Source: Branchiostoma floridae
Taxonomy: Eukaryota > Chordata > Leptocardii > Amphioxiformes > Branchiostomatidae
Length of the DNA stretch: 64,000 nt
Direction: 5' to 3'
NCBI RefSeq assembly: GCF_000003815.2
Contig: NC_049979.1
Location: 15,051,459-15,115,458, forward strand
The notes beneath the pieces were generated by a model. It did no database searches, had not been told where the DNA came from, and saw only the letters and a program-made list of their open reading frames with translations. Each line of letters begins with the position of its first letter. Position 1 is the stretch's first letter. Made by a program: the position numbers and the translations under genes. Of this stretch, positions 11,720-50,596 are shown piece after piece.

Positions 11720-12903
11720 CTATTTCCTCTCTTTGAGGCTCTTAGTGGGCATGTCGCTGAGGTAGATTCCCAGCGTGATGCCGAGGGAGCCAAGCACGAT
11801 CAGCGACAGAAGCAGCCGCTCCGCACGGAACCAGTCGGGGTAGCCCTTCAGCCGATAGACGTCAGTCCACATGGTGAATGCGAAGCCCAGCATACACGCC
11901 ATCACCGAGGTACCAGGCAGGACCAGTAAGGCACCCCATGCAGCAATACTGGGCAGCACGCTGATGGACAGGTTGAGCCAATCAGGAGGTGGGCCCTCCT
12001 CGCTCAGGGTGATTCCCCATCGGATACCCCCCAAGAAAGACAGGATGGACGCTCCGCAGGCCGCGTGGGTGAACACAATCTCCGGGATGTAGCACTGCTG
12101 GAACAACATGTAGGTTGGGAGCAGCGCAAATGGGACAGCACCAGCCAAACCGAGATACAGAGCGGCATTCGGCGCATCCTTGAGGTACCCGAGAATCTGC
12201 TTTACTGACTCTGGCTCCTTTGGAACTGCCTCGGCTGCCTGGTTCATGAGTCGGCAGGGCTGGAGGGAGGCTAGTGTGGGCGCAGGTTTGGTCTTAGGCT
12301 TGGTGCTGGGAGGACAGGTGCTCAGTCCACGTGCCCACTGGGTTAGGAGGGAGGTGGGTCTGCTGGATAGCTGCAGGGGCTGACACCTGGCCAGGTGCAG
12401 CCCTCTACATGGCACCTGTCAAGGGAAAGTAGATTTCTCTTACATTATTGCTAGAAAAATGACAATGAATTACAGCTAACTTGGGCGACAAAAATGGCAT
12501 TTTAACATCCCTTTCTGGTACAATTGTCATCCTCTTGACTTGCCTCTGAGACTGATCTGTGACTACACATCAAAAACAAAATTTAAATATCAAAACAAAT
12601 CTGTTCAAAGTTAAGTCATGAGTCAGATCGTTGTTCAATATCATATTTTACATGGTAACACTCACCTGGCTGTAATTCATATGGAGGGTAGTCAAGGGAT
12701 TTTCAGAATATTGTTGCTGTATAATGTAATTGCAGCATCAAGTCCAAATTCAATGTCATGTTGCCAAAACAATTATTTGTCTGCATTCAATCAAATATTA
12801 ACTGCAGAACCAGAACACTCTCCTCTGGAGTTGAGCCTACCTGTGAGACCACCCTGGGGACTGCTCCCCTAAGGAGACTAAAACATCGCCCTAGTTGAGA
12901 CAT
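11720..12903 (-). CDS. TMEM69: TMEM69-like mitochondrial multi-pass membrane protein (DUF3429)
   Basis: Two coding exons: 12841-12903 (21 codons from ATG at 12901-12903) and 11720-12415, joined in phase 0 to give 252 residues (human TMEM69 about 247). The second exon opens with GTG, a valine codon, straight after a CAG acceptor, so the true start is in the small upstream exon. The N-terminus is basic, serine-rich and lacks acids, as expected for mitochondrial targeting. The conserved part has ALYLGLAGAVPFALLP, the family hallmark ASILSFLGGIRWG and PDWLNLSISVLPS, with about five hydrophobic helices. The family is known in animals and bacteria, but its molecular function is not established. The tail PTKSLKERK is hydrophilic. 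No damage is seen. Confidence 0.88.
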
Positions 12904-25129: not shown

Positions 25130-28100
25130 ATGTCCTCCCGCAGTTTTAGTCATGAACATGTCGCTGTCAGCCTAGCACTGGCCTTGATTATGATGTTGAC
25201 AGGTAGGTCCTTACGCGCTTTGAATATCAATAGTCCGTTCAGCGACTTTCTTTGGAATACATGTACATGTACTAGTAACGTTACTGTGCGGGCAGAATCA
25301 GGAATACACATTTCCTTTTCAAGCATGTCCAGACAGTGGGATGTGGAGTTTCACTAGCACCATCTGTCGCCTTAACAATTTTAAGTAACGTTACATGGTT
25401 GTACGGCCTTGAATTGTCGGATTACCTCGGAAGACGGAGGCCTGGTGTTCGTTTTGAGCTTTGTTATGTTTACTACATGTAACGTTACCTCTTATTTACC
25501 AGGCCGGAGTGAGGCCCAGACCCAGTACTACGGCAAACTGATCGGCAGCTTCCCGTCCTCGGCCGGGCAGGGCGGAGTGGCCGGGACCGTGTACGCTGTG
25601 GACAACAACAGACTGCAGATCGTCGGCTTCTCGTTCGACGGCTCCGTCACAGGTGTGTGTTGAGGCCGTATAACGTTATATGTCATATAGAAAGAGTATA
25701 GTCACAAGGAATGAGACTGGACCAAGGACGACGTAGTTTATTTACAGTGCCTTTAAAGATGTTCAATGATCCTTACTATAACAGGTTGTTTTATGGTGTA
25801 CAACTACTTCTGAATTAGTCAAACTTTAATTCTACTTCTAGTATGGCCAATGCTATTGACAGGATGTACCTGTATATTACTTGAATGTTTATTCAGTATG
25901 CCGGCTATGAACAGGAAATTGTCAGTTATGACACAGACACAACAGTCTTGAGACAAAAATGTGCAGAATCATGTGTGGGTGTGGTGTTTATCCGGCACAG
26001 GTACAGACTGGCACAGTTGGTGAGGTCATTAGTAATAGCCTGAGGAGGTTTCATGTGACAACAGCTATCAAGATGTACAGAACAGCACAAAACAGAGACC
26101 ATACAACTGCTTGGAGAATAGAGATAAAAGAAAATGCCGTCATTATAAGGCGAGACTGGTACAGACTGAGACTACTGCTGTCTCCTTTGTTAGGCTAACC
26201 TTGCATTTTAATAACCTTGGATTGTCAACAACATTAGGGCTGTCATTGAAAACAAAGAAGTACCATGGAACAAAAAAGGAAATGTAGATATAACATAATA
26301 AGGCCACAGCAAGTAAATTTTATGGATCACATCCTCTGCAGACTGCAAAAATAGTGCGATAGGGCGAAAAAAAAACAAGATGGGTGAGAAAAAACGAGAT
26401 GGCTACATTTTCAAAAATAGGCACCATAAAGTTGTGATGACTGTTGTAACAAGAATTAAAGGGACAAAACAATGCATTCATTCCTGTATTCAAGACATGT
26501 ACTGATGTGGTAAAAGTGACACTAGTGTGGTAGACTGGCATCACCAACAAAGTTGGTAACCACACTCATAGCTTCCATATTGGTGTCACAACTATCCAAT
26601 AAGTTTCATTTCTACAACTAGAGTTCCACGAACACATACCTTTGCCAAATAAACCAGGTTTGTTATGTAGAATGATGTCTGTAGACATAAATGTGTTACT
26701 CATTACATTTTATTTTATATGCCCGGAGTTGGTTCATAACATTTCGCCATTGCTTATACAAATTAGATCCCTATTTACATAATGATATTAAATTGTATCA
26801 AGCATCACTTAAGCTATCAGCATACCAAAAATCATGATGATCCTTTCAGCCCTTCTTGACTTATTCTCTTTCAAATTAGGAAACTAAACCGGCTCCTGCA
26901 GTTCAAGAAAAGATGTTACCGGACCCAAACATACACCTCTTAGTCTCAGCCATCTTTCTCAGTTCCATATGTGTCAAGTTTGAAAGTCCTATCACGGAAT
27001 GCAGTGGATTTATCAACTTTCCGCATTAATCATGCAAATTGTTAATTTATATAATTAGTATCTCATTATGTAAGTTTTTACTTAGGATATCTACATACCA
27101 AAAATCATGACGATCCGTCAACATGTTCATATTTTGCCATTAATTATGCAAATGAGATCATCATCTGCATAATTAATATGTATAAATATTTCTTTCTTTC
27201 TCAGCTACAATTGTGACAAGTTTGAAAGTCCTTTAAAGGGATGCAGTGGATTTACAAACTTTCCTCATTAATTATGCAAATTAGCTGTTGATTTGCATAA
27301 TTTGAATTCCATCATGTAAGTCTTCCCATTGGCTATCTACATACCAAAAATCAAGACGATCCGTCAACGGGTTTATATTTTCTCATTAATTATGCAAATG
27401 AGGTCGTCATTTTCATAATTAATATGGATTGATTTTTCTCTCTTTCTCATCTATATATGTGACAAGTTTGAAAGTCCTATCATGAAATGCAGCGGATTTA
27501 TAAACTTTCCTCATTAATTATGCAAATTAGTTGCTGATTTGCATAATTAGTATTCCATAATGTACATTGTTACTTGGGCTACCTACATACCAAAAATCAT
27601 GACGATCCATAAACACGTTCTCGAGTTATTCTCGTCCAAAGTTTGAAAGGAAATCGGCGACTGCAGTTCCAAACAAGCCGCTAGGGGGTCCAAACTTATA
27701 GTACTTACTCTCTGCCCCAAGGGCTATCTACCACTCAAAAATCATAACCACAGCATGTCCAGAACACGAGATATCAAAAATTGAGATCCTGCTGCAGTAC
27801 CGTAGCAAGCCGCTAGGGGGCCCATTATCGAACTTGACCTTCGTTTTCCCAACTCCTATCCACCTACCAAATATTATCGGGATTCATCCAAGGCTTCTTG
27901 AGTTATGCTGTTAACACACACATAGACACACACACAGACTCACAAGCCTAAAACATAACCTTAAACTACAGTCCTGGATACATCGCAAGTGTCCCTTCTA
28001 CAAGTACAATTATTAGGCTACAGGTACAACTAAACACAACATATGTGCTCATTTTGGTACTTAATCGTCATGTTGACCATCCCTGTAGAAGAAAAAAATC

Positions 28101-31100
28101 TTGTTTTTTTTTCTGAAATCAGGCGAAAATTAATGCGCGCGCTGATGTCATCCATAAAATTTACTTGCTGTGGCCTTATGAATGTCATCATAAGGAACAT
28201 ACCGGTAATGTCAGAAATCTGATGGTATATGAGTTTGAAGTAAGATGTGGATTTTTGTGCTTTTTTGTTTATGGCCAATACACATAAGGTAATAGTTCCA
28301 TAGTAGCAATTATCAACTTCATTTCTAAGTTGTTTTATTGATTATTACATTTCGCTGGTACGGTGGGAGTATTTGTGCCTGTCTTTGTAAAAAAATATAA
28401 TTGATAAAGAACCAATAAGTTCTCAAATGTTATCGGTGAAGTCAAGAGTCAGACTGTAAAGGATGGCGTAAGGTTAGCAGGGTTCATAAGAAACTGAACA
28501 AGCTGGTGCATTCTGCTGTGGTAGTCATCATTTATCATTTGTTGAATTGGTATCTGCCATGTCTGACTCAGTCAGTACTCTACATGCTGCATGTCCAACA
28601 CACCTGTACGTGGAATACTTGTGCAGGTAAAACACCTTGGGTAAAAACTGAATGGAGGACTGACCATGTTTCTGTTTGCCTCAATCAGCCCAGTTCCGTG
28701 CAGGCTCTACGGGCTCCCCCAGCGGTAACGGAGGTGTGCTAGTGCCTAATGAACAAGGCGGGTGAGTAGAGATGTAATATGGTTGAGGTGGATCTGTATT
28801 ACTATTAGGCATTCGTGACGTCCAAGTAAGTTAGTTCTTCATACAGTAGGGACATTTTCAGTGCAAGTATCAGGTAAAAGGGCTTTGATTCTACTGTTGT
28901 CATTTCTTTATTATATCTCTGGGTCTGTTTGTCATTATGCTTTGACAAATGTTTCCTTGATATTTTTCTCAATAGCACTGGTCCTTTGGGTGCATACAAC
29001 AACAAGAAGCTAGTTCTGGCTCTTCCCGAAGGAACAACTCTCCAGGACACTGTCAGGTGGTTTGCTGTCTGGGGTCAGAATGTGAGTACATGTATTTAAA
29101 AAATTTGATTCTCCCAATACACCATTGCAGCATTTGAACCAAACTAGACAACATTGCTTGACACAAGCATGAAGTGACACACTGAAATTAGGTACCCAAA
29201 ATGAAATTAAGCAAATTTTGGAGACAATATAAATCATGGTTATCACTCTTACTGTTAGAATGATTTGTTTCCATCACAAGTCCTACTTTGTTACCACAAG
29301 TCTAAGAGGATTACCGCTTACCGCTCCCTTAAGAGGATGGATCTACCTAAATGTAAAAACAATCTAAGATGACTCTTGAATGAGATAATGACTATAATTA
29401 ATTTCCTTCAAAGTTTTATGGCTACTGACGAGGATAAAATGTTTGTTATCCAGAGCAACCTTGGCCATGTGACTGTCCCAGATAATTTTGACTACCCTCG
29501 CCAACGTAACATTGGAGAGTTCGAAAGACGCCAACATCAAGTCCGCTCAGGGGATGTCACCATATTGAATGCCAAACAATTCTACATACGAAATCTGCAC
29601 TATGATGGACTTGGACCTGGTAAGTGGTAAATACTGTGATGCTTCAAATGGTAAGAGAACAGAGTGACTTGAAAGATCCAACAGCTGAAAACCTTAGAGC
29701 TAGTGATGTGTTGGAATGAGATTGAGCTGTTTTTGCAATGACGATGTTTTTTTCTCTCTCAGATGCATTTTTCTGGGCTGGGCAAACTGACAGTCCCAGC
29801 TCCAGCGGATTCAAGGTCCCTGACCACAGGGGAAGGTACTAAATGCCCTTTATAACCAGGTTACATAGTGTCGATGAAATGTTGAAGCATTCAATTCTTA
29901 TTCTCACCCTTTTTATTGTTTTTGTTTCTTCTACAATTTCTCCAAGGAGCTTGTATCAACATTGTTATTTGTTACCTACAATCCACTTTTCCTTTAGTTC
30001 TGACGAGAAATTGCCAAGGTACACTGGCCAGACCATCACCATCGTGCTGCCAGGTGACGTAACTGTATACGACATCAAGTGGCTCAGCATGTGGTGCATA
30101 CTCTTCAGAGCAAACTTTGGCGAAGTGTTCATCCCTACAGACCTTAATGTCCCGCCAATGGTGGAAGATGTGCCAGTCCCTCCTATGGTGAGGACAAACA
30201 CTGTTGACTCCTTCCAACAAAAACCTTTCACCGTGACTTTTCACAAGCCTCTCCCTCTATTTTTTAACCATCATTTTATGTTGTAATAACAAATTCAATG
30301 TAGTGCAGTCTCTGAGCGCATGAGGATTGTCAACAAGACTGTGCAGAGAAAGCCTACATGTCCAGGTTACTAGGTGTGCAGTTTTGTAATGAGGTGGTTT
30401 TGAGTGTCTGTATCTGTATCTGTATCTATATAGCCGGTATAACCGCCCTTCGGCGTAACACACCAGCTTCGCAGGCACGCGGCGCGGCAGCAGCTGGTTA
30501 TATTACACTGAACGACTCATCACACCTAACTTTTGCACATCTATATGCAAGTGTTCTCTGAAACTATCCAGAGAAGACGCCCCTACTGTGCTTGGTGATA
30601 ACATATTCCACTCTACAATAGTTCTGGGGAAATAGGAATTTTTGAACACATCAATCCTAGGTTGGTAACTCTGGTACTTGAAAGCATGACTGTTTCTAGT
30701 TCGTTTTTGAGCTGGTGTTAGATACTTATCAGTCGGTACGTCCACCAGTTTATTGGTCATTTTGTACATCATACAAAGTCTGGACATTTTCCTCCTGTCT
30801 TCAAGTGATGTCCACTGCAGATCTGTTTTCATTTTGGTAACACTAGCATCTCTGCTGTAGTTGTTTGTACAGAATCTGGCAGCTTGGTTCTGTACCCTTT
30901 CCAGTTTATCTTTGTCTTTCTTTGTATACGGATCCCATACTGTTGCAGCATATTCAAGATTTGGTCTTACCAGTGACGTGTATGCAAGTGATTTTACCCT
31001 GGCTGGGCATGCCCACAAGTTGCGTTTGATTACTCCCAGTGTCTGTTTAGCCTTGGTTGTTATTTTGTTAACATGGACACCCCACTTCAGTCCAGTTGTT

Positions 31101-34100
31101 AATGTAACACCGAGGTATGGGTGGGTTTTTGTGGTTGCTAATGTCTGACCACAGAACTGGTAGGGGGATACATTTGGGGTTCGTTTGTTTGTTATGTGCA
31201 TGATATAACATTTATCCGGATTGAACTGCATAAGCCATTTCCTTTGCCACTCTTCCAGGGTGTCCAGATCTTTCTGGAGAAGTAGTGAATCTTCCTTTGT
31301 AGAGAGCTCTACATATAACAGGCAGTCATCTGCGAACAACCTCACACTTGAATCGAGCTGGTCTGGCAAGTCGTTTATGTACAAGAGGAAGAGCAATGGT
31401 CCCAGGACAGTTCCTTGCGGAACTCCAGACGCTACTTTAACTGGAGCTGAGGCCTTCCCTTCTACCACTACAGTTTGCTCTCTGTTCGTTAGGAAAGCCT
31501 TTAACCAAGTTAAGTGTGGTACCTTGAATTCCATAATGCTCTAGTTTTGATATCAGTCTGCTATGTGGGACTTTGTCAAAGGCTTTAGTAAAATCAAGAA
31601 TTGCTAGATCCACTTGTCTTTTGTTGTTCAGTGCCCCAGCTATGTCGTGTACTGTTAAAATAAGCTGTGTTTCTGTGGATCGCTTTGCTCTGAAACCATG
31701 CTGGTAGTCCGTTAGTACATTGTGGCCTTCTAAGTGTTTCATTATATGGCTATGGATAATGTGTTCAAGTAGTTTACAGGAAATACAGGTAAGTGAAACT
31801 GGTCTGTAGTTACTGGGGACCGCTCTATCTCCCTTTTTGAAAATGGCGCATACATTTGCATCTCTCCAGTCTTTAGGAATCTCTCCTGTGTCAAGCGATT
31901 GTTGGAAAATGTTAGTTAAAACAGGTGCGATTTCACTGGCTGTCATTTTGAGGAACCAAGGAGGTATTTGGTCTGGCCCGGATGCTTTGGATGGATTAAG
32001 GCCTTGCAGCATTTTCTCTACACCATAAATAGAAATTTCTATTTGTTCCATAGGAGGGGTGCAGGGGTGCCCAAGAGATGGCATGTCTGTGGTGTCTTCT
32101 TCTGTGAATACACTTTTAAACTGTGAACTGAGTGCCTCTGCTTTTTTCTCACTGTCACTAATAATGGTGCTCCCCACCTTTAGAGTGGCTACCCCGACAA
32201 GGTCTCTCCTCAGGCCTTTTATGTATGACCAGAATGTTTTAGGTTTGTCAGTTATAGCTTCTCCCAGTATGTTTGCCACGTACTTTGAGTGTGCTGCTCT
32301 TATGCTTTTCTGAACTCCTTTTTTTACTTTCTTGTATTTATTCCAGTCTTCCTCTTGTCCTGTTCTCTTAGCTTTATTGTAAAGACGCTGTTTCTTCCGA
32401 CAGTGCCTTCTTAAGTTGCTGTTAAACCAGGGCAGGTTGTATCTGCTTGATGTCATTTTACTAGGAATATGTTTGTTCATTGTGTGCTTCATTTTGCCTT
32501 TGAAGTCATCCCATTTCTGTGTCACTGACATGTCTTTTGTTCTCATGTTAAAGTTTGTTGCATAGTCCTCAAGGTCATTCTTGATAGCCGGCTCGTCAGA
32601 TTTCGTGCGAATATACACTTTCCTTTTTGGTTTTTTGTTCTGTTTGGGTGCCAAGTTCACGTCCACTAGAACCATGTCATGGTCACTTATTCCCGGAACT
32701 ACTGCGGTCTTTTCAATTATGTTTGGGTTGTTAACTAAGACTAGGTCCAAGAGATTACCATTTCTGGTTGGTTCCTGAACTGTTTGGAATAGCCCATGGT
32801 TATCCACTAAGTGCAGTAGTTTCTGTGCCTGTCCTGTATAGTTCTGAGCATTATCTGTTGTGCTGACATCCCAATTTATACCGGGGGTATTGAAATCTCC
32901 AAGAATGATCACATTGTTGGAGTTTATCTTAGTTCCCACTTTATTTATAGAGTTGTCAAGCTCACCCAGACTATTGCCCTGGTCCGACGGAGGTCTGTAG
33001 TATGTACCAATCATAAGCGGTTTCTTTCCTGCAAGTTGGGTTTGTGTCCAGATTATCTCACAGTCTGTGTCCAGATCTGGTCTGTGGGTGACAATCAGAT
33101 CATCCCTGTTTGCCTGAAAAACACCACCTCCTGGGCCAGTTTGTCTGTCTTTACGGTGCACTATGTAGTTGTCAGGGAATATTTCACTGCTTGATATGTT
33201 TTCATTGAGCCATGATTCTGTGCCCGCTATTATGTCCGGCTTATAAGTGTCAATGACAGTTGCCAATTCAGCAGTTTTGTTTCGAACACTCTGGCAGTTT
33301 ACCAGCAGGAGTTTAGCCTTGTTCTTTTTGTGGCCATTACCTCTAGTGTGAGTTTTGCCTTGTTTTGATCTAAGTGGAGTGGATGTGGCCGTCGGTGTGT
33401 CACCTGGCAAACTTGTGCTGGAGTTCAGCGTATCAAATGAATTTACTGAATGGAAGCTGTCGTCAGTGATGTCGAACATGTCTGATGCAAAGTTTGGTAC
33501 GCCGCAGTCACAGCATATCCATGAGTATGATTTGTGGGTTTCTAATACAGTGTATACTTCCNNNNNNNNNNNNNNNNNNNNNNNNNNNNNNNNNNNNNNN
33601 NNNNNNNNNNNNNNNNNNNNNNNNNNNNNNNNNNNNNNNNNNNNNNNNNNNNNNNNNNNNNNNNNNNNNNNNNNNNNNNNNNNNNNNNNNNNNNNNNCAT
33701 CTCCAAGTCCCATTTACCCCCACTGTGCTTAATCATGAAGGCCAAACGTGGCCCAGTTAGAAGTACAGTCAGATCTGAAAGTACATGTGACATTTCCTTC
33801 ATTTATCTCATGTTTAGTGTTTGGCTGTGATCCTGGTTCGGCTTTGCTGAGCAACAGGCAAAGGGCCAGAAGTATACATGTGCAGTGGAATTCCATTTTG
33901 TCGACAGCGACTATTCGAGGTTGTCCAACAATCTCCACACCGTCCGACGGTGCCCGCTGCCCAACAGCGAATACAATACTCAGGATTGTCCAACAGTCTC
34001 GCCACACCGTCCGACGGTGCCCGCTGTCCAACAGCGAATACAATACTCAGGATTGTCCAACAATCTCGCCACACCGTCCGACGGTGCCCGCTGTCCAACA

Positions 34101-37100
34101 GCGAATACAATACTCAGGATTGTCCAACAGTTTCGCCACACCGTCCGACGGTGCCCGCTGTCCAACAGCGAATACAATACTCAGGATTGTCCAACAATCT
34201 CGCCACACCGTCCGATGGTGCCTGCTGTCCAACAGCAAATTGCAAACAATTAATACACAAAGTTGTCCGACGATTCGACCCAAGATAGTAAATCAAAATC
34301 GTGAGTTCAGATCAAAAACAGTTTGCGTGCCCTCCCATCCTGTACTCAATTCAGATGCAAATCAGGCGGGACACGATGTAACTCTTACAAAATCCACACG
34401 AGTTCTCAAATTACAAGGTGGAGCAGATATATCAGTACAAAAAATATAAGTGGTTAACCAAATATATGTAATTCAAATCGCCAAATGAGCTATCAAAGTG
34501 AGTGCTGGACCAATGTCTGTGCTGGTGTAGTTTATCCTACCTGTAGGCACTGGACAAGTGAGAAGATAGCCCAGATATCCCTGTGGGTGAGCGAGTTTGT
34601 GCTTGATTTTAAAGCTTTTTCCTTTCCATCTATAGCCCATGATGAACTGTGAGGAGCTGCATCGTGACATGCAGGTCAGCTGGACCCTAGCCGGAGATAA
34701 CCTGGACGTTGAGTTGGCAGGCCGAGTGGAGGATGGAGACTACATGGCATTCGGCATCAGTGGCTGCAACGACCGTGTCTGTATGGTGGGTTCTGATGTG
34801 ACTGTGGCCTGGTATGATGGCGACACTCCTCGGGCTGTGGACTACACTTTAAAAGCCTACTCTCAGGTAAAGTGACAAACTTCTGTGACACAATAAAAAA
34901 TATAGGCTTCTTGACAAAAATTACAATACAGTACAAAAATATAGCTCTCATAACTGTATTAGAAAAACCTAGGATAATCACCATCCATAGTTGACCAATA
35001 AAGAAAAATCTATGCACGAGTTTGACTACTCGCACACTGTTCTCAAAGATCTCACATTCCACGACATTAAACTGATGTTAAGACCACAAGAAATGAAAGG
35101 TGTATGTGAAAATAAACATCTGAAGCCTGTTACCTGCATTGATTCTCCTGTGACCCAACAGTGCAGTGGGACATCTGGAGTGTGTCCGGATGATCGAGTC
35201 GGCGGGGCAGACAACAACGTTAACATCACAGGCCGACAGGTCAATGGCATCACCAGGATTCGGTACTCTCGTCCCATCAACACGGGCGACACCACAACTG
35301 ACAAGGTCATTGACCCATCTCAGAATATGTACATCTCTTGGGCAATTGGACCGATCAACCCAAGCGGCGTCGCTGCCAAACATCACACCAGAGTCGAGGG
35401 TGAGTATTCCCACTATACATTTAGTTGTGGACGGCTGGAAGTGCCTGGGTCACATCACTTTCAGGACAAAAGACCTATATGCTTCTTGACACACATATTG
35501 ATAAAGTCTTTTCTGTGTATCACAATATCAGATCAAGTCCGGATCACGTTTGGCCGTCAGGCTTCTGATATGTGTGAGATGATCATCAGTGCGATGCCCG
35601 CCCCTGTCACGCCTTGGCCAACCAGGAAAATCAAGGGCGACCAAGTCACAAACTTCACTGTTCGCATTGGACCAACGGGTGGAAGGAGAGGTTTTGAAGC
35701 TATCACAGGTGAGGATGCAGATTCTGTGATAACGATGAATTCACTTAAAGGGAAAGTACCTTGAGCACTGAAGAAAGCCAGCTGATATCCATTGATAATG
35801 GTTTTGAATCAAAACAATATCTATACTAGACTATAGAGATGAATATTGAACTGATGAATGGAATACTAGTACATGTATCATTCTAAAGGGGAGGAATGTT
35901 AGGAGAAAGACATATTGGGTTGAACATTGTTGCAGGACTGCCATCCTGGGGGATCGCCTATTGGCTGAATGGCCTCCTGATTCCTGAGCTGGAGCTGAAG
36001 AGGGGTTGGAACTACACATTCATCGTGGAGGGAGGGGACAACCCCGCCACTCCTGAACGGTACCACCCCTTCTACATTACGGACGATCCCATTGGCGGCT
36101 ACACACAGAAAACACCTGCAGAAAAACAGGTATGACCAGTGATAATGAGACCTTGGTGTGATCATCGGATAAGAGCAACTCAACTCTGGTTGTAGAAAAA
36201 GATACTTGTTATAACTGAAGAAAGAGCAATTTGTCTTGTCATAACTTGCTTGAATATGGATATGTCCTCTGGATATGTCTCTGTAGAACTTCGTTGAAGT
36301 CTTAGTACAATACCACATCATAGACAGCCTGTCACACTTGCCTTACTTGGATTGTACAGCCCTGCAATGCTCACTAGGACAATGTAGAGGTAACTAAAGT
36401 ATAAAGGGAAATTTTGATTGGCACATCAAATTAGGGTGTACATATGTTGTAACTTCACCTCAAGTGACAAAATATTTACACGCTGATCAAATTGACTGAT
36501 AAAAATATTGTTCACTTCAAGATCGATAGCTGTCTGCACTTTTGAATTTTACAAAGTTTACATCTGTTGCTCCACAGCAAATCAACGTGTTTGCTGGTGT
36601 TGATGAGCGTGGGATGCCAACAGCAGGTAATTACTCTCACTTTTAATTCTTAACAATACTTTATCAGTTTTACAGTGTAAATGTGTTCTGTTTGAAATAC
36701 ACTGGGTTTCCACATTTACCCCAAATTTTGAGGTAAGAATTGTTTCCCTAAGCATATGACTGCTAGATCCTATATCAAATTTTATTCTGCACCTCAATTC
36801 TTACACAAATTGTTCAATTGTTGCCACTAAAGCTGGCCGCTACTGTGAGTACAACAACCCGAATGGTGACGCGTCAGAGACATCCGAGACGTTTGCAGAG
36901 TACGCCAGGACGTTACAGGTGGACTGCAGGCCGGGCCAGTCAGCGCAGTTCACCTGGACTCCTGATGACAACACACCAGACCTGGTGTACTACCATGTGA
37001 GTAAACCTGGGGTACTTATATGTGGTTCTGTTGGAGTATATCTGAGTGGTCAAACCATGCGTTACAAAATCAAGCTCTCTGTACACGGCAATCAGTAATG

Positions 37101-39192: not shown

Positions 39193-42100
39193 CTAGATGG
39201 TAAAGGTCTGCTCCTTGTCGATGTCCATGGGATCCAAAAGCTCCAGGTCAGGAACATCATCCAGACAGGCCTCCTCCTCAACAATACCTTCAGCTGATGC
39301 ACTGTAGCAACAGGCATGGTACACATAAGTTGGCTTACTAGGTTTAAGTTTCAAGGCTTAGGAGTAATATTACATTGTACATCCGCTTAAACCGGTGTTA
39401 CAACATTAGACAATGTTAACTATAATACAGACATCCCAAGTCTGGTACAAAGACCATACCAGCGACCAGTCATGTCAAGTGGATTCTATACCATTGTATT
39501 TTTTTAAATCATCTGATACACTCAACATATGTATGTAGACAAAAAAATTTGAATCATACAAATTGTCAGGAGGAAAAGATTTGGTCAAATTCCATTAGAA
39601 TTTTTCATAATCAAAAGTAAAGATTTGGTCAAATTCCATTAGAATTTTTCATCATGAAAAGTCATAGAAAAGTACAGATACAAAAATTAGTTGCACAGCT
39701 ACTGCCACAAGTGCGTACCTGACTTGTTCGATCTGAGGGTCCCAGTTATGTAGTTTTTTACGCCATTCCTTAATCCGTCCATCCCATGCACGTCTGCTAC
39801 ACACAGCGAACTTAGTCGGAGTCCATGGGTCATCCTTCTTACGGGCATGTCTGGGAAAAAAGAAGGAAGGTTAGGACATCTTTTCTTGACCTACCACAGT
39901 TGCTTTCTTGGGGAAAAAATCTAACAAAACCTACTTCCACACAAATGGGTACTGACCACAGTACAGTACAGAAAATAATGCTGGTAATTTGGACATTTAT
40001 AAAGAGCTCCTTGATGCATTTCAACAAATTTTACCTGGTTGGCAACTTTCCCCTCAATTTTGTGAGTGTCAATACTTCCTTGTGCCAAAGTGGCAACTTT
40101 ATCCCGACTGTCTCACTATACCACACCTATCCCTTGACCTCTTTGTGGGTCGTCTTCCACCTTTCCAAAAAAGTATATGCTCGCTTAGATGTCTGGCCTT
40201 AATGCTTACCTGGGAGTGTTCTGGCTGTAGTTGTCGTATGCCAGTGTGTTTTTGCCATAGTCAATCTGCTTCTGTCTCCTCATGAGAGTGACTTGGTCAG
40301 TCTCACACATGGCGGGATTTGCTTTACTGTAGAAACAAGATGTACATGTATAATTCGTCCCATCATTTTGTACGGTGGAAGATGATTTCGACCCCCAAGT
40401 GCAGAGCCCTCAATGAGAAACCAACTTCATATCACGATTCATTATCAGCAGCTTTTACACAACCAATAAGCTGAACTGCTTTGTAGTACTTAACTTTACA
40501 TGCTTGATTTAAAACCAAAACGCATCAATATGTTTAACAGTACCCTTGCAATGTAAATTTAACCTATAAGTTGCACTTGAATATTACCTGTTGTCTTCTT
40601 GTTCACTACTTCCAGTAGAACCAGTCCTGTGACGCTTCTTCTGATATCTGTGAAAGACACAGAAATCACCAGTCTGTTTTGCATCAGGAGATATATTTAA
40701 TAAAGAAAATAACATGAAATAATTCTAACCACAATTCAACCTCATTACATATAGAACAATACATCCCTAACCACCTCATGGCTGTAGGACTGTCCATAAG
40801 GTATCTTACCTGTCTAGTTCCCCCTGAATGATGCTGGTCTGTTTCTCAAACTCCTCTGCCATGTCAGCCCATCCACTCTTGGTTCTGTAGGCTGTGGGAC
40901 TGGAGCTTAAAGAAAAATACCTTAATTATTCAACATTGGATTTTACCTAACAGATCACTCTAACCAGTCTCTAGATGCATCTTGAGCATTAATCTAATCA
41001 GATTCCTCTCATCCTAAATCATGTAATGTCTGATCTAAAGTACTTCATTGCAATATACAGACTTTGCTTACAAACAATACCTAGAAATCATTGCAGGAAA
41101 AAGAAATTCCTCACCTGTCTGTCTGTTCCTTCTTCAGGTAACCATTAGGCTTATAGCATGAACTCCTGTTATCTCTCATCTTCTCATAGCTCCTATCTCG
41201 AAATGGCCGTCTGTTGTCACTCCTGAAACAACAAAGACCACATGGATTTGATTTTATCTTATAATTTATCGAGCCAACTGAAAGTCATTTAGTTCATAAA
41301 CTTAAGGTATCTCGGTTGGCTAATTTGGCATTTTGACCTTCCACTGTTTTCTTATTGATGAATTAAGAAAGAATGGGGCCGTAACGAATGTTGATAGATG
41401 GGCATGAAAGAATTCTAAATCTGATTTTTTGGGGGCCAAATTGATGACGTCATCATTTTTATTGCCTCTACTATTAATTTTTTCTATGACAAAATACAGC
41501 ACTTTGGTACATGCCACTGTAATGAAACTTCGTTTTTCGTTGCATAATGATGAAAGCTACAAACTCACTGTTGCGCAAATTGATATCTACTAATGATCTG
41601 TAGTAATTAGAAAATGTTTGTTTTCATCTAATTAAAAAAAATTAATTCTTAATAACTACAGATCGTTAGTAGATATCAGTTTGCGCAACCGTGAGTTTGT
41701 AGCCTTCATCATTATGCACATGAAAAACATTGTTTCATTGCAGTGGTATGTACCAAGGTGCTGTATTTTGTCATAGAAAAAATAATATTAGGGGCAATAA
41801 AACCTGATGACGTCATCAATTTGGCCCTCCAAAAATCAGATTTAGAATTTTTTCATGCCCATCTATCAATATTCGTACGGCTTAAGTCTTTCTGAATTCA
41901 TTAATGAGAGAACAATGGAAGGTCAAAATGCCAATTTAGCCAACCGAAGTACCTTAAGCTGAAACTCTTGGGTATCTTTTAATAGATATGCCATTAAACC
42001 TAGCTCTGACTGTCAGCAAAATTTCTCCCTCAAAATACAGGAAATAGTGTTTCAGAGAGTCAAAATTTCAAACTCTTCCCCACGGAGCATGCTCCTAGAT

Positions 42101-42904
42101 GATCACCATGGAACATGCCCATGCGCTGTAGGTCAGCAATTCGCGGTCACATGCAAAATTTCTGCAACTGCCTCTGTAGAGTTTGCTAGCCTTCTAGAAT
42201 TTAGCATAAAGTTGGCCTTTCTGAATTTAACGTAAATCATTGACGGCCTTTGTGTGAGTTTAACATAAGCGTTATCGCCCATCCATAATCTATCATAAAG
42301 CTTTGTCAACCCCCATGCAGACCCTTATGACACAAATTTCATGATAACGTTACATAATTGTAACGTTACTTGCATACAGTGTTTTTTTTGCCATTCAAGC
42401 ATGCATAAATAATACGGAATAACTTGAAAGAATATTAACTACCTCAGACTAAATGCATAGTCAATACAAAGTATCCAGGGCGTCACTGCCGTCACATTTA
42501 AATCCGGTTGTCGCAAATACACTGCGTCCTTTTCAGGTCCTTTCAGACCAAGGAGGTTGTCTTTTTTAACCTCCTTGTTCAGACTAAGTTAGGTCAAGGA
42601 GCCCAAAGCCCTTAAATTTATCCATTTATCAACAACGTTAACAAATGTTAAAAATTGTGTACAGCTGAGCACTATCGTGTGCCAGTACATGTATGTAACG
42701 TCAGGAACCAGGGAAGAGAACCTACCGATCGCGCCTGTTTTCCCGCCGCCGCTCAGATTCATGATGCCTTCCCCGGTCGCCATTCCGTGCTTGTCTTTCT
42801 TCACGGTCACCACACCGCTGGTCAGTCCTGGATCGCTGTACCTGGCCATTTCCCTTATAGATACGAAATTCTGCGTCCCTACAACCTTCCATCCTTCCCA
42901 ACAT
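39193..42904 (-). CDS. SLBP: SLBP, histone mRNA stem-loop binding protein
   Basis: Binds the 3' stem-loop of replication-dependent histone mRNAs and directs their processing, export, translation and decay. Exons 5' to 3': 42726-42904, 41115-41222, 40810-40905, 40588-40647, 40210-40326, 39719-39850 and 39193-39301; 266 residues (human 270). Start ATG is 42902-42904, with a second in-frame ATG four codons on. The N-terminal half is Arg/Asp/Glu-rich. The RNA-binding domain (about 158-228) reads [20 protein letters not shown], then [20 protein letters not shown] and LHNWDP, all hallmarks of the family. The usual TPNK is TPTK here, keeping the threonine that is phosphorylated in other species. I do not see the vertebrate SFTTP degron. 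Intron 1 hosts a large palindromic element, and intron 6 has a 44-bp tandem duplication near 39576-39663. The gene looks intact. Confidence 0.93.
41301..41958. mobile_element. 658-bp foldback MITE (near-perfect palindrome, TTAA ends) in SLBP intron 1
   Basis: The two halves are inverted copies with few changes: CTTAAGGTATCTCGGTTGGC at the left is answered by GCCAACCGAAGTACCTTAAG at the right, and similarity continues to an AT-rich centre near 41611-41648. TTAA stands at both tips, the target duplication used by piggyBac-type elements. Each arm carries a perfect CRE octamer TGACGTCA (41445-41452 and 41808-41815). No coding frame. Superfamily is inference from the TTAA tips. Confidence 0.8.
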
Positions 42905-43560
42905 TTTTTAAGAAATTGTGTTCAGCCAATTGAAAGAAGAAATGGCGAGTTCTCGACGAATAAACACAAAAATTGCAGAGGGAATAATTTCTGGCGCCAG
43001 ACAAATTTCGCGGGAACTGGATTTCCCAGCATGCAGTTAGAACCTTACATTATTGATATAGGAGAAAAAAAATAATGATATTCTAATTATTTCAAGCAAG
43101 AAAATAAGAACAACATCTCATAACTAACAAAATAGAAATTTAATAAATCAGAAACTTGGAAAAAACATACCAAAGTGTTGACAGTCTTTATCTTTTTATT
43201 GTATTTTTTCGATATTTATTCACACATTACCTATTTCTATATGGACTAGTCTACTCACCGCAGGATTGGTCAGGGAGTGGCTATTTTGCATATGTGTTAT
43301 TTTTCGAAAATGGCGGACTTACACCAGAGTTTATAGCTTGTACATAAGCAATCCAGCAATTTAGCTTTCTCTGTCTTAGCCTAACTTCCCAAATACCTGT
43401 AGATGTGGAGTCCACCAGGTCCTCTTATGTTTATCATAAATCTGCTAATATTTTAGTGTAGTGGGGTCTGCGCTGGGGGACGCTGTGTGGCGTCTGACGC
43501 GTTGGAGCAGTGACAAAAGAGATCTTCCAGCAGCTGCAAAGTCTGGTGACCTTGTCCAAA
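42905..43560. promoter_or_regulatory. Shared bidirectional promoter of SLBP and CDC25
   Basis: 656 bp separate the start codons of the two divergent genes. On the SLBP side there is a perfect E2F-type site TTTCGCGGGAA (43006-43016), a CTGGCGCCAG palindrome (42991-43000) and a CCAAT near 42924. On the CDC25 side there is an inverted CCAAT (ATTGG, 43265-43269), a CHR-like TTCGAA (43303-43308) and a YY1-type AAAATGGCGG (43307-43316). E2F and CCAAT/CHR modules are known controls of S-phase and G2/M genes respectively. Start sites are not visible from sequence. Confidence 0.6.
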
Positions 43561-46500
43561 ATGGCCAGTCCACCGGTCACTGACGCCAGAACTACGGACA
43601 AAGAGGTAACAAACGCGTGTGGTGATTGTCATGAAGCGCAGCAGGTCGATGTGTGTACCGATTTGCCTACGGAGTCTGACAAGAGAGGTCTTTTCCTGGA
43701 GTTGGACCTTGCTCTCCCCATCAATGGCGGAGGGAGCACTGCGAAGCTATCTGTCGACCACACGAGCGACATTCGGCCCGAGCTGGTGGTGTCTCCGATG
43801 TCAGACCTGGCCATGAACGTCAGCATGTGTGAACTAACGTCAGTATTATATATACTTCAGCACAATATGTATATACACTCAGCACAGTACAGTATTTGAT
43901 TTGGTGAGCACTGCAAGATTATATCAAGGAGGTTAAAAAATCCAACAGCGAAGAAGATGGGGAAAAACTTGTCTTATATTATAACATATAGTATTGTCAG
44001 CTGTGCAATAATAATCAGTAATAAATAAATAGTAATCAGTGCAATATATTCTACAGGGCTCTTGTATTAATCTGTCCACTTTTTTAAAAACTTCCTTGAT
44101 CTGGCAGTGGCAGTGTATGTCAAAAGAGTTGGTTATGAAATCTAGTTGCTTACTCTCAAAAATGGAACTGTAACAGTAATAACAAATTTTGTTGTCCGTC
44201 ACTTTAGATTGTGATTATGATTATGTGTGTAATATTACATTGTAACGTTATAAGTCATAACTTATGAATTTCCTCTTTTCTCAGTGATGGAACACCCAAG
44301 CGTCGACTTCAGTTGTCTCTGACTCCAACCCCACAAAGTGTGACACCAGTCATCAGAAGAATTTCTTCCATCTCTTCTTTCACAGGTACATGTGGACATA
44401 TAAGGTCTAGTGCCATCCTGGTTACTCAATGTGCACTTCAAACGTTGTGCTATGTCTGGTATCACAGCAGATGATGCTCCAGTGGGAATCGGGACAAGTC
44501 GGATTACCACCCACTTGGACCAGTCAGCTTGAACCAACACCATTGGCAGTTGTAACTTGTTAGGGAGGGATATGGTTAGGGTTTGGCCAAAGTGTTGTTC
44601 CAAACTGGCTTGATCAGACATGGTCCCAGACTCCGATTTCACAATGGCCCAAGTCATCTGACATTCCTGAAAGAGAATACCTCAGGCCAGGAATATTGGC
44701 ATGTATAGCAAACAAGTTCACATTTGCAGCATTTGTAACCTCTCAGCAGTGTCAGATGCAGCTTGTCGTTTAATGGTTTTATCATCTTTTCACTAAGGGT
44801 GATACCCTACAAATGCATACATGTATAAATTATTTTTATGCAAAGTAAAAGAAATTCCCAAGAATGTTTAAATGTAGATCAGTATAGACTACTACAAATG
44901 ACAAAAATAAATATGTTTTAACTTGTTCTGTTGGATGAAATCACAGATTCACCAAACCATGTGGAGGACTCCCCCACCATCCAGCAAATGTGAGTAGACT
45001 CAAATGCCCTGTACTGTACGTCTGGTAAAAAAATGGGCTGTTTTCAGCAAGACATACATATTCATGTATATAATTTATGAAACAAGGTTGTGGACCCATG
45101 TCTATGAAAATATTTACCACTTACATCTACCATGTTTTTCTTCAGGACAAGCAGGTTGCAGAACAGGAACCCTGCACTAAGGTAGATAACGATACTAAGA
45201 GAGAGACATGAGAATGTCTAAATACATGCAATTCAATACCTTAGCTAAGTACAAAGCTGCTGTCAAATGTACATGTTTGTCAACACAAAGTTTGACAAAC
45301 TTGTTTGGTTTCAAAGTTCACCAGCAAGTCTTATATTGCACATGTACTTGACACTGTAACTTCTTTTTTTTTAATTGTCAGCTTAATCCATTTTTTAACT
45401 AGGTCACCTGGTAAGCTGCTATGTACACTGCTAAATAATTACATGACATCAGCAGTGATAAACATTAAGTCAACTTTTATTTAGACCTTTCCGATAGATT
45501 TTGAAAAGTTTTATATTTTGATTTTTGCACTGACTCATTTTCAGAAGACCATTGTCATTACGGCGCCATCAGTCCATGCCAGTGAGTACTCCTGCTTTTT
45601 ATACTCAACATACTCAAGTACCAGACTAAGTGTCATTTTGTACTGCAAATTATTAAGAGCATAGCAACTGGAAGCCCATAGCAACCTTTAATCCATCACA
45701 ATCAGCAGGGCATAGTCTCTGATATTCTGTCTGAGGATGACATTTGCTTAAAATGTGTACAATGATCCACAGCAGGATGATCCTAGTTCAGCTCATGTAT
45801 GTGCCATAAGGATAATAGGCTGCTATACAGTCAGAGGAGCTGAGGGGGTTATGATTTTAGGCTATCTAATTAATTTACAAGATGATTTGCACGTCTTCAT
45901 TATTATTTTGTTCATTTAGTTGGTTGGGAATTAGAAGTTTTATACTGTTGTCTCCCAGGTCCATTTCCAGGGATTCAGTCAGGAGATAGAAGGACAGAAG
46001 GAGAATGTTGAGGAGATCGCTTCAGGCAGCCATGGAACAGACCAAGAGGTACTGTAGGATTCTAAAATTCTTAACCTCAGCTTTCTTCTTTCCAAAGCCA
46101 TGATTACTTCCTCCTGTTATTGGTCCCACCTGTAGCCAGATATCAAGCTTACATGTAAGTCAGATAAAGTCCACTCTGCAATGGTAGCAAGATTTGACAT
46201 GGTAGATCTCAAGCAGAATTTATTTAGCCTCAGTTTTTCCATTTTGACATGATTTTTGTTCTTGGATATAGAAGAAGGAAGCAGAGGTTGAGAGTCATCC
46301 CTTCCGAGTGCCAAACAGGCCTCCCACCAAGCGTGGCCTGCACCTCCCAGTACCTCAGGTAAGGGCTTTTCCTAGAAAAGGGTTCACTACAACATTTCTG
46401 AATACTGGCAAGTATACAATCTATCTGTGCATACAGTCAACTGCATTTTGTGAGTCAACAGTTTGGTTAACTTTGTTGATTGAAATTTAAAAACAAGGAC

Positions 46501-49500
46501 TATGATTATGTCATCATTTCTGTTTACTGCAGTGTTTAAAGAAGTCTCCAACAGCACCTGGGAGTTTAGAGGTGGCTGCAGGGAGTTCAGCAGCTCTGCC
46601 TGAAGCCCCACCTCATATTTTTGATGTGGACAATGATGATGACTTTTTGGAGTTGTTGGTGGCAGAGCAGGGTCAGGTATGTAGTAAGTCCTTTTATACA
46701 AGCCATGAGAACGTGTGAACAGGATATACTGATGGTCTGATTCCATCTGACTATCACTATCTGAATCTGATCTGTTGCACATGTGTTTGTTATGATGTGA
46801 TGTGATGTGTTGAACTCAAAGTCTGACTAAAACTGCCTTCCAGGGGTGCAAACCTTTACCAGGCAGATCAGTTGCCTCCCTTATATGATTGAAAGAATTG
46901 AAAGAAATAACAAGAAGGGATTTCATGGTAGTCTTGAATTTACATTGACACTTGTGACAGATCAGGTATGGCCTGGTCTGGTCCTGACAGAAAGGTACAA
47001 ATGTACAATGAGTATGATACTTTGATGCATTTGCATGTTTTCCATTATTAACTGCCCATCTCATTGTCTTTACTTCAGACCTGCTTTCTCATTTTCTTGC
47101 ATAGAATTGTAGAAATAATTCCTGAATAGAATTACAAATAAAAATTTGTCCCACAATACATATTTTGTCCAGGTTGCCGAAGAGAAAGTTTCGTCCAGTC
47201 TGATGAGTTTAATGAATGCCCCACTACTTAGTTCTGAGGCTGAACACAAATCACCTGGCGAAACACCCAAGGTTGGTGATGTTATAGTTGTATCATGTCC
47301 ATCTTGGAAAAAAACTGAGGTTTATGCCATTATTGTCATGCCATACTGGTTACGTACATGTGTATAGAGATCTTTACGAGAAACTTCCAGGCTTGACTGT
47401 CTACAGTAGTATCATGATGAAGTGTTTTAATTAAACACAAATCTGTAGGTGAGACTGTTGGAAACTCCATCAAGACTGAGATGAACAATGTCAGATGTTT
47501 TACATGTGTATTCCCCTATAGGAAATAATAACTTACATGCTCTTGACAGCTAGTGTCAAAGTTTAGATAGGTCTGTCCTGTGGCTGATGTTTGTCGATAT
47601 TTTGTGAAGGGTTCTGAACGGGGCCAACCCCGGGGGCTTTTCCGATCTCCGAGTGCGCCCAGGTTGACAGGATTAAAGCGGTCGGAATGCTCCACACAAC
47701 GTGTCAGTCCTCTCAACAAGAGAAGAAAAAGTGTCTGTGAAGATGAAACTACAATCCAGGTGAGTCCATGTATGCTGTTAAGCTTAGTAGCTACAATGTA
47801 GTAAGCTGTGGATCTTTAACTTGATATTACTTATCTAGATCATAGCAAAAAGGAAATTCCTATCATTTGTAACTAAGTGTTGTGTTGTTGTTTTTTGGTG
47901 ACATTTGTTGTAAGCTGTACTCTGTTTATTTCCAGCCTATTCGGCCACCTCTCTATCGTTCCCACTCAATTTGTGAGGTCGGTGGTTTCTCACATTACCT
48001 GAATGCAGGTGAGCTTGTTACTGATGTCTTCCTCTTTGTAAGACCTGGTTAGATATGATGTGAGAGGCAAGGCAGTTTTGGATACACATGAATTTGGACC
48101 AGATGATAACAAAAATAATTTTAGCACATGTATTAATTTTGTTTTCTTTCTAATGTTTTAGGTGGAGAGGGCCATAACTTGATAGGGGACTTTTCTAAGG
48201 TAAGATAAGATTTCCTTTAACAGTTTGCAGTTTTAGAATAAGTGGGGAACCATTCAATATTGTGCATAGGAGACACATGAAGACAGGGAGATTGCAGTAG
48301 TGGCTTCATTTTTTTCATTTAAATTAAAATCATCTTAAAAGTAAAATCATCTTCATCTTAAAAGTAATAATAACCATTGTTTGTGTCAGTAATCCCCTGT
48401 TCTGTTACAGCCATATTGCTTACCACTCGTCAAGGGCAAGCACCAAGATCTGAAGAGTATAACACCAGACACTGTAAGTCTGTTTTATGCTGGAAATATA
48501 TTAGCATTGTCTGGTTTACTGTCTCAACATGTTAGAATGTTAGGTTTCTGTGGCTGTTATTGTTTGACTGTGCATATGACATTGGTTGTTTATTCCAAAA
48601 TTGAGGAAAAAATCACTGGGTAAGCCTTTGCACTTCCTTTAAATTCCTAGATTAAGTATAAGACATGATATTATCCATATTATGTCACAATTTTCTAATC
48701 TTTTTGAAATCCATACTTCTCCACAGTTGGTTGACCTGTTGCAAGGTCTGTACAGTGGACAAGTACAGCACTTTGAAATCATTGACTGCAGATATCCTTA
48801 TGAGTACAAGGGGGGGCACATTAAGGTGAGTGCAAGGACTCAACGTTGTAGGAAATAAATTGTATGATATTGACCTCTCCAAGGCCTACCTGGGGATGTT
48901 CAATTGTAATTCATCATTGAAAGGATAGTATATGTATAATAGTGTAGAAAATTGTGAAGTTTCTGTATATTTAGTTATACTTCTTTTACATGTTGCACAC
49001 CACTGTGCCCTGTGGTATTTACAACCCTTTCCAAGAAGCAGGGCTCAAAATGCATTTACCTGCACTTGTACAGGTAACATAACTACCTGCACCAGACAAA
49101 TTTTACCTGCACCACTCTGAATTTAGGAAGTATGGTTGTTGGATCATACTAAAATTGTTGAGAGGAGCCATTGCTATTTTTTCTTTTAGATCTATACTTA
49201 ATAGGTGGTAATAGTCAATGCAGCTTATAACAATCCACATACACCTATATTATAGGACATTTATGTATAAAACCCAGTACATGGACCAGCGCAGGTTAGG
49301 TGCAGGTAGACACTAGAAATACCTGTACAGCCCAACTTTTACCTGCACTTACCTGCATATGCAGGTGGTATTTCAAGCCACAAAGAAGCATGCCATATGA
49401 TAAGTATTTTGCAAACGTATTGAAAGTATACAGTACTATGTGTTACCTTTTATGCTATGTAACAAGATTCCATTTGTTTTTAGGGAGCAAAGAATATCTA

Positions 49501-50596
49501 CAGAAAGGATGAAGTTCTGTCAGAGTTACTCCGCAATCCACCAAAGTATTCAGACAGTAATGAGCGCCACATCCTGGTGTTCCACTGTGAGTTCTCATCG
49601 GAACGAGCGCCAAAACTGTAAGTTATTGTCCCATGTCTGTTACTGTATCCACGTCAGTACTGGTTATTTTGGACTTAAAAAGATAGATAAAATGTTAGAG
49701 ATTTGATAAAAGCACCACACTATTAAGGAAAGAGCCTCCCTTTAATCTGTATGTAAATTTAACTGTGCATTCAGCAGTGATTTTGAAAACGAGGATTGAA
49801 TGTCAAATGTGAGAAGTCTCAAGTGTTCTTTCTAGATTTAAAGTGACCAGTGAATCTGTTTTACTTTCACTGCATAGCACTTTATTTCTGTTTTCTTCAA
49901 TATGTGACACATAGACTGCATATAAATTCTTTTAGCTTGTCAAATTGTTAGAAATCAAAGTGGATTTTCATGTTACCCAATAGATTTGTTGAATGTAAGG
50001 ACATTGCATACTTCATAAATTTTTCCCAGGTCCAGATTTCTCAGGAACAAAGACAGAGATGCCCACAAGAATTGTTACCCAGGTCTGAACTATCCTGAAG
50101 TCTACCTGCTGGATGGAGGCTACAAGGCCTTTTATGAGGCCCATGAGGTTAGGGCTATACTACATGTTCCTGATATGGTATAGTACAAGAAAGTTGATAA
50201 AGTCAGATCTGTATGTATTATCATAAGATCAGAACTAGATATTCATTCATACTCATTATTATAAGACCAGAACTAAATATGAGGCCTGACAGTTTCTAAA
50301 ATGGACGACCGTCACACTATACAGATAAGACAATCAAGAGTGCAAGAGTGAATTTTTTTTGTCTTGCAAAGCATGTGCAACCCCAAAAGCTATACCCTGA
50401 TGTTACAAAGAGAAAGTGAAGTTTTTTTGTTGTTATCCTACAGAGCATGTGCGACCCCCAGAGCTACACCCCTATGCTGCACAAGGACTATGGTGAAGAG
50501 TTGAAGAAGTTCCGGCTGCGGTCCAAGTCGTGGGCGGGCGAGCGGCGCCCCGTGATGAGAGCAGGACTAACCCAGAGGTTCAACTCTGTCAGGTGA
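43561..50596 (+). CDS. CDC25: CDC25 dual-specificity phosphatase (M-phase inducer)
   Basis: Removes inhibitory phosphates from CDK1/CDK2. Exons: 43561-43838, 44285-44385, 44947-44989, 45146-45181, 45545-45581, 45959-46048, 46272-46358, 46533-46676, 47173-47271, 47610-47759, 47936-48008, 48162-48199, 48411-48473, 48727-48825, 49484-49617, 50030-50147 and 50444-50596; 580 residues. ATG 43561 is chosen; upstream in-frame sequence has only a GTG at 43510. The N-terminal half is a long regulatory region with Ser/Thr-Pro sites (SLTPTPQSV, RRHQSMP, FRSPSAP, KRRKS). LIGDFSK and GKHQDLKSITPDT precede the rhodanese-like catalytic domain, with IIDCRYPYEYKGGHIKGA, the active loop HCEFSSER (Cys481, Arg487), GLNYPEVYLLDGGYK and the C-terminal KSWAGE. 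Donors GTCAGT (exon 1) and GTTGGT (exon 9) are weak. The acceptor of exon 10 could lie earlier, after TAG near 47570. One CDC25 is as expected outside vertebrates. Confidence 0.94.
49039..49380. mobile_element. hAT-like MITE in a CDC25 intron
   Basis: Left end CAGGGCTCAAAATGCA and right end (reverse complement) GGCTTGAAATACC are alike, and both arms are filled with ACCTGCA motifs and their complements (GCAGGT). Flanks CCAAGAAG (49031-49038) and CAAAGAAG (49381-49388) look like an 8-bp target duplication with one change, as expected for hAT. About 340 bp, no coding frame. Confidence 0.6.
50368..50423 (+). pseudogene. Partial duplicate of the CDC25 last exon (pseudo-exon)
   Basis: Bases around GCATGTGCAACCCC (50371) repeat the start of the real last exon GCATGTGCGACCCC (50445), 74 bp downstream. 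The poly-T tract before each copy is duplicated too. The older copy reads SMCNPKSYTLML against SMCDPQSYTPML in the functional exon, then diverges. It has CAAAG where the true exon has CAG|AG, and no donor is evident. A local tandem duplication of the intron end plus exon start is the simplest cause. Confidence 0.7.

Follow-up and report, generated by a model that had tools for sequence, protein, structure and literature searches.

The 656-bp spacer between the start codons of SLBP and CDC25 in Branchiostoma floridae is best explained, at a probability that we put at about 0.66, as an ordinary compact divergent promoter that carries an E2F element for SLBP and a separate core promoter for CDC25. 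The spacer lies in a stretch of 64,000 nucleotides, referred to below as the window, and the main present value of the analysis is that the E2F word of an MCM5-like gene also heads SLBP in one and the same genome.

SLBP and CDC25 stand head to head, the spacer being the exact gap between the SLBP ATG (42904, minus strand) and the CDC25 ATG (43561, plus strand). This arrangement had been proposed in an earlier note on this DNA and is borne out by the gene models, which were spliced by hand and both close in frame at AG/GT sites, as well as by the family assignments of the two proteins (Table 1). The SLBP model contains the SLBP RNA-binding domain (Pfam SLBP_RNA_bind, PF15247; E 3.6e-27, 94.6 bits vs a cut-off of 27), and its residues 150-229 match the histone RNA hairpin-binding protein of PDB entry 4l8r, one of several such entries (E 6.9e-24). 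The CDC25 model has the M-inducer N-terminal region (M-inducer_phosp, PF06617; 8.4e-19) and the rhodanese-like catalytic domain (Rhodanese, PF00581; 6.3e-16), both above the curated cut-offs, together with the HCX5R loop, and a PDB search names M-phase inducer phosphatases 1, 2 and 3, including M-phase inducer phosphatase 2 (2uzq; E 3.6e-62). A whole-genome DNA search with the spacer returned a single copy, namely itself. Rfam at gathering thresholds gave zero matches within the 64-kb window, and a scan of viral contigs with the SLBP protein gave no match. Given this geometry, measured between start codons, the two genes may share a promoter.

Table 1. Coordinates of the two genes and of candidate promoter elements (positions in the window, except for the last row).
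Feature	Position	Strand	Remarks
Spacer	42905..43560	.	656 bp between both start codons, GC 37%
SLBP coding region	39193..42904	-	7 coding exons, 266 aa
SLBP exons	42904-42726, 41222-41115, 40905-40810, 40647-40588, 40326-40210, 39850-39719, 39301-39193	-
CDC25 phosphatase coding region	43561..50596	+	17 coding exons, 580 aa
CDC25 catalytic HCEFSSER (HCX5R loop)	codons from 49583	+	from the model and the 2uzq alignment
Palindrome TCTGGCGCCAGA	42990..43001	.	perfect; possible second E2F-like GGCGCC element, adjoining the E2F site
E2F site TTTCGCGGGAA	43006..43016	.	reads TTCCCGCGAAA on the SLBP strand
TTCCCGCG			word of the SLBP promoter, named with TTCGAA as a candidate working element
ZNF143/Staf-like core TTCCCAGCATGCA	43023..43035	+	beside the E2F site
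CCAAT box GACCAATC	43264..43271	-	possible NF-Y site; ATTGG at 43265
TTCGAA	43303..43308	.	palindromic candidate CHR; P 0.17 alone, 0.25 paired with CCAAT
YY1-like AAAATGGCGG	43307..43316	+	overlaps the candidate CHR
YY1-like CAAAATGGC	43557..43565	+	over the CDC25 start codon; one of two CAARATGGC in the window
E2F 11-mer at the MCM5-like gene	C1:12404174-12404184		far edge 93 bp before the ATG

The SLBP end of the spacer contains the stronger evidence. The earlier note had described a perfect E2F site about 100 bp from the SLBP start; the place holds, with 102 bp from the near edge and 112 bp from the far edge to the ATG, but 'perfect' does not, as the site, read on the minus strand, matches TTSSCGC and not the longer TTTSSCGC. 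The nearest match to that longer consensus is TTTCCCGC at 42739-42746, inside coding exon 1 of SLBP, which is one of four TTTSSCGC in the window. On the SLBP strand the interval from the E2F site to the SLBP ATG is free of other ATGs, so that a start near the site would give a clean leader. The E2F 11-mer occurs once in the window and in 0 of 4000 dinucleotide shuffles of the spacer, a P value that is optimistic because the word was taken from the earlier note, and about 0.0003 copies are expected per 656 bp. Across the genome (513,431,437 bp) there are 241 copies vs 85 for the word read backwards, a control that does not preserve the CpG number. The loose TTSSCGC is seen once in the spacer, which is not significant (P 0.12, dinucleotide shuffles). 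It is thus the 11-mer that provides an E2F word near the start and beyond chance, the distance being measured to the ATG. The adjoining palindrome is also a single copy in the window. A tandem of E2F and CLE was considered too weak, the SLBP-strand hexamer 4 nt past TTCCCGC being TTTGTC, one base off the CHR variant TTTGTA.

Twenty 10-kb stretches sampled from the same contig (188,613 unmasked bases, giving 8689 overlapping 656-bp stretches) contain one copy of the E2F 11-mer. This copy precedes an MCM5-like gene and is oriented as at SLBP. The first exon of this gene is MDGFDDPGIFFSDNFGGDEGQ, which alone has no Pfam match, and the next coding piece matches MCM_N (E 2e-9); the label 'MCM5-like' stands for what we take to be a likeness to human MCM5. 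Read on their sense strands, the SLBP promoter has TTCCCGCGAAATTTGTCTGGCGCCAGAAATT (far edge 112 bp) and the MCM5-like promoter TTCCCGCGAAAATTTCGCGCCAAATT (93 bp), with an identical E2F word, equal orientation and a GCGCCA element next to it; at the MCM5-like gene, too, the E2F site is followed by a GCGCCAAATT element. The word, orientation and GCGCCA common to both genes are good evidence for a real S-phase-type promoter element, and the E2F half of the proposal is, on these sequence features, well supported as such an element of SLBP. A CCAAT word is also found beside the 11-mer of the MCM5-like gene.

Judging by eight further genomic copies that we read, the 11-mer is not specific to S-phase genes, and the E2F word alone does not prove cell-cycle control. 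One copy stands 126 bp before the ATG of an open frame that is nucleoside-hydrolase-like, as judged from its translation alone, with another open frame on the opposite strand; two more of the eight are promoter-like by eye and three are without an obvious first exon. Two of the eight sit in sequence that looks similar by eye, like related repeats, so repeats may account for part of the 241 genomic copies.

On the CDC25 side the evidence is weaker. The CCAAT (43265) and CHR-like TTCGAA (43303) named in the earlier note are present, but the pair is not clearly beyond chance. CCAAT occurs in the spacer at chance level (2 seen, 1.8 expected from shuffles), TTCGAA has a shuffle P of 0.17 (the sampled genome predicts 0.09 per 656 bp), CCAAT-CHR pairs spaced 15-60 bp apart have a shuffle P of 0.25, and the ten published CHR variants taken together are fewer than expected (3 seen, 6.4 expected). 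Among the 8689 sampled stretches, CCAAT with TTYGAA occurs in 3619 and CCAAT with TTCGAA in 553 (6%), and the addition of E2F (TTSSCGC) leaves 482 and 109, respectively, while the loosely spelled trio of E2F, NF-Y and CHR within 656 bp is found somewhere in 137 of 150 simulated 64-kb sequences; the stretches overlap in both the simulated windows and the sample, and these counts are not independent. The strict motif combination is therefore uncommon but far from decisive.

The position of the pair is also relevant. It sits at a distance of 258 bp from the CDC25 ATG. Closed upstream ATGs interrupt the interval from TTCGAA to the start codon at three places (43310, 43403, 43427), and a CDC25 transcript starting at TTCGAA would carry them in a leader of about 250 nt. 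No CDE (TGGCGG/GGGCGG) occurs at the 4-nt spacing published for the CDE/CHR tandem (PMC5716687); on the plus strand there is no GGCGG just upstream of TTCGAA, and on the minus strand the inverted word CCGCCA stops 2 nt short of it. TTCGAA is given as one of ten functional CHR variants (PMC4705690; PMC5716687), and a list of 210 potential CHR-pathway targets includes CDC25A, CDC25B and CDC25C (PMC4705690). A G2/M CHR element for CDC25 is possible, and the CHR as a strong element is set aside on grounds of chance (shuffles, simulations and sampled stretches).

Two other kinds of word, ZNF143-like (43023) and YY1-like (43307, 43557), were absent from the earlier note. The ZNF143-like core TTCCCANNATGCA occurs here once in the 64 kb, and the sampled 188,613 bp contain no copy. 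The published SBS2 motif in full length (SBS1 and SBS2 as quoted in PMC7154149) matches the ZNF143-like site at 16 of 25 positions, which is not significant, as a match this good or better occurs in 127 of 3000 random 656-bp sequences and in 60 of 60 random 64-kb sequences. With a rare core and an ordinary full match, this was not accepted as a proven ZNF143 site. ZNF143 has been described as bidirectionally active (Anno 2011, cited in PMC7154149) and is linked to cell-cycle genes (PMC7154149). The YY1-like word AANATGGCGG, at 43307, is likewise the sole copy in the 64 kb (shuffle P 0.0025), with 4 in the 188,613-bp sample. Because the YY1 and ZNF143 words were both sought once the sequence had been read, their P values are optimistic. 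The spellings of YY1, NF-Y, octamer and other promoter words, where they are not quoted from papers, are those that we take to be usual. No simulated window (0 of 150) and no sampled stretch (0 of 8689) brings E2F, ZNF143-like, YY1-like and NF-Y words together, a set that was picked post hoc, and in the window the four-word cluster meets only around this site because the ZNF143-like core occurs once.

If the spacer is an ordinary compact divergent promoter region of the type common in amphioxus, it would hold two separate core promoters, and we infer factor binding, start sites and timing at it as follows. On the SLBP side the E2F site, with the GGCGCC palindrome and perhaps a ZNF143-type site, would make SLBP transcription proliferation-dependent: E2F/DP complexes with RB or DREAM would repress SLBP in resting cells, and E2F/DP would activate it at G1/S, a behaviour also expected of MCM5 in this genome. 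CDC25 would have its own start, most likely marked by the NF-Y and/or YY1-like words, and the two genes would share open chromatin by position. The constant production of SLBP mRNA described for mammals (PMC4315090) counts against this picture, as do the ordinary level of the loose E2F consensus and the occurrence of the 11-mer away from S-phase genes.

The earlier note had gone further and proposed SLBP and CDC25 as one coupled cell-cycle module, in which E2F serves SLBP and the CCAAT-CHR pair serves CDC25; selection would then keep both genes together. We find this claim unsupported and the reading unlikely. The motifs do lie where it places them, the E2F side is strong, TTCGAA is a functional CHR variant with three CDC25 genes on the CHR-pathway target list (PMC4705690), and the scarcity of the strict CCAAT and TTCGAA combination (553 of 8689 stretches) leaves room for a working pair. 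Against it stand the ordinary shuffle value of the pair and the commonness of its loose form (3619 of 8689), the lack of a CDE at 4-nt spacing, the three closed upstream ATGs and the high frequency of divergent pairs: bidirectional promoters account for 25% (3,950/15,884) of neighbouring amphioxus protein-coding genes (PMC6292497), so a head-to-head pair of cell-cycle genes is unsurprising. Mammalian SLBP mRNA, moreover, is described in a review as produced constantly, with the timing of the protein left to translation and degradation (PMC4315090); translation control is also discussed in PMC3764509. Within the set of papers searched, none joins SLBP, CDC25 and 'bidirectional promoter', and among the matches listed for amphioxus SLBP and amphioxus cdc25 none was, by title, on the SLBP/CDC25 pair. 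A broader form of the coupling appears very improbable to us. It would have an old chordate or deuterostome divergent pair whose 656-bp region sets the timing of histone-mRNA processing and of the mitotic phosphatase as a single cell-cycle unit, with an MCM5-like E2F block and a CDC25 block about a nucleosome away, and with a later split in vertebrates by the disentangling of bidirectional promoters that has been described for vertebrates as against amphioxus. Should the pair prove to be conserved and its genes co-regulated, it would offer a simple natural test of how a single divergent region assigns two genes to different phases of the cell cycle.

At the other extreme, the juxtaposition may be due to chance, with unrelated promoters abutting in a compact genome and no shared function even at the chromatin level. 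This reading carries appreciable weight while falling clearly below an even chance, and it can hold together with E2F control of SLBP. The base rate of head-to-head genes is high, and the human SLBP and CDC25 loci are presumably not neighbours. However, human SLBP and CDC25A both appear in a table of RB/E2F1-bound genes (PMC9090780 Table 1), which would make shared use of one E2F region cheap; the same entry for SLBP speaks for the E2F site at the SLBP end and means that E2F at SLBP is not new in kind. A variant that is compatible with the ordinary divergent promoter, and that we regard as possible if doubtful, has CDC25 starting near its ATG (about 43430-43555), with the YY1-like word over the start codon as its mark. 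TTCGAA would then lie >100 bp upstream without a role, and the E2F/ZNF143-like cluster may serve both genes. The word CAAAATGGC at 43557 offers such an alternative anchor, GC climbs toward the ATG (0.45 then 0.52 in the last two 82-bp bins), and a transcript beginning after 43427 escapes the upstream ATGs. Amphioxus promoters have been scored for YY1 motifs (PMC6292497) and ZNF143 is reported to be bidirectional (PMC7154149), but the YY1-like word at 43307 qualifies equally well.

Several known systems come close to this locus. The bidirectional promoters that CAGE has defined in amphioxus (Marletaz et al. 2018, PMC6292497) are alike in their close head-to-head protein-coding genes and YY1-like words; theirs, however, are defined by mapped starts, whereas the distance here is from ATG to ATG. 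E2F S-phase promoters such as those of CDC6 and MCM3 (PMC5716687) are matched by the TTSSCGC element about 100 bp from the SLBP ATG, although the site here is taken from sequence alone and the mRNA of mammalian SLBP is described as constant through the cycle (PMC4315090). The CHR and CDE/CHR promoters of G2/M genes (CDC25C, BUB1; PMC5716687, PMC4705690) resemble the TTCGAA and CCAAT upstream of CDC25, but here the pair is not clearly above chance, has no correctly spaced CDE and is followed by 258 bp with upstream ATGs before the CDC25 start codon. The SYCP1/CHIC bidirectional promoter of amphioxus (PMC5803294) is likewise a lancelet head-to-head pair with a shared promoter region; that pair was compared in two lancelets and its expression assayed, whereas SLBP/CDC25 is described here purely from its DNA, and SYCP1 is a retrogene (PMC5803294) whereas SLBP here is multi-exonic.

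Several other features of the window were observed. Intron 1 of SLBP contains a long imperfect inverted repeat (41301-41958) with arms 86-92% complementary and 10 nt between the innermost arms, resembling a foldback or MITE element. Residues 94-110 of the SLBP model (41115-40810, minus strand) read SSSPTAYRT where, set by eye, the human phosphodegron stands, which is presumably the TTP motif, and the degradation signal of SLBP here may differ from the human one. Neighbouring coding pieces include DUF3429 (11723-12418, minus strand), a cytochrome P450 (19517-20080, minus strand) and DOMON (34991-35761, plus strand). A retroelement piece at 30506-31540 (minus strand) matches a reverse transcriptase domain (RVT_1). 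Two tandem repeats were also found: one with a 246-bp unit in 2.7 copies and several ATTTGCAT octamers at 26953-27620, and one with a 67-bp unit in 4.8 copies (95% matches) at 33921-34240, inside a 236-codon open frame.
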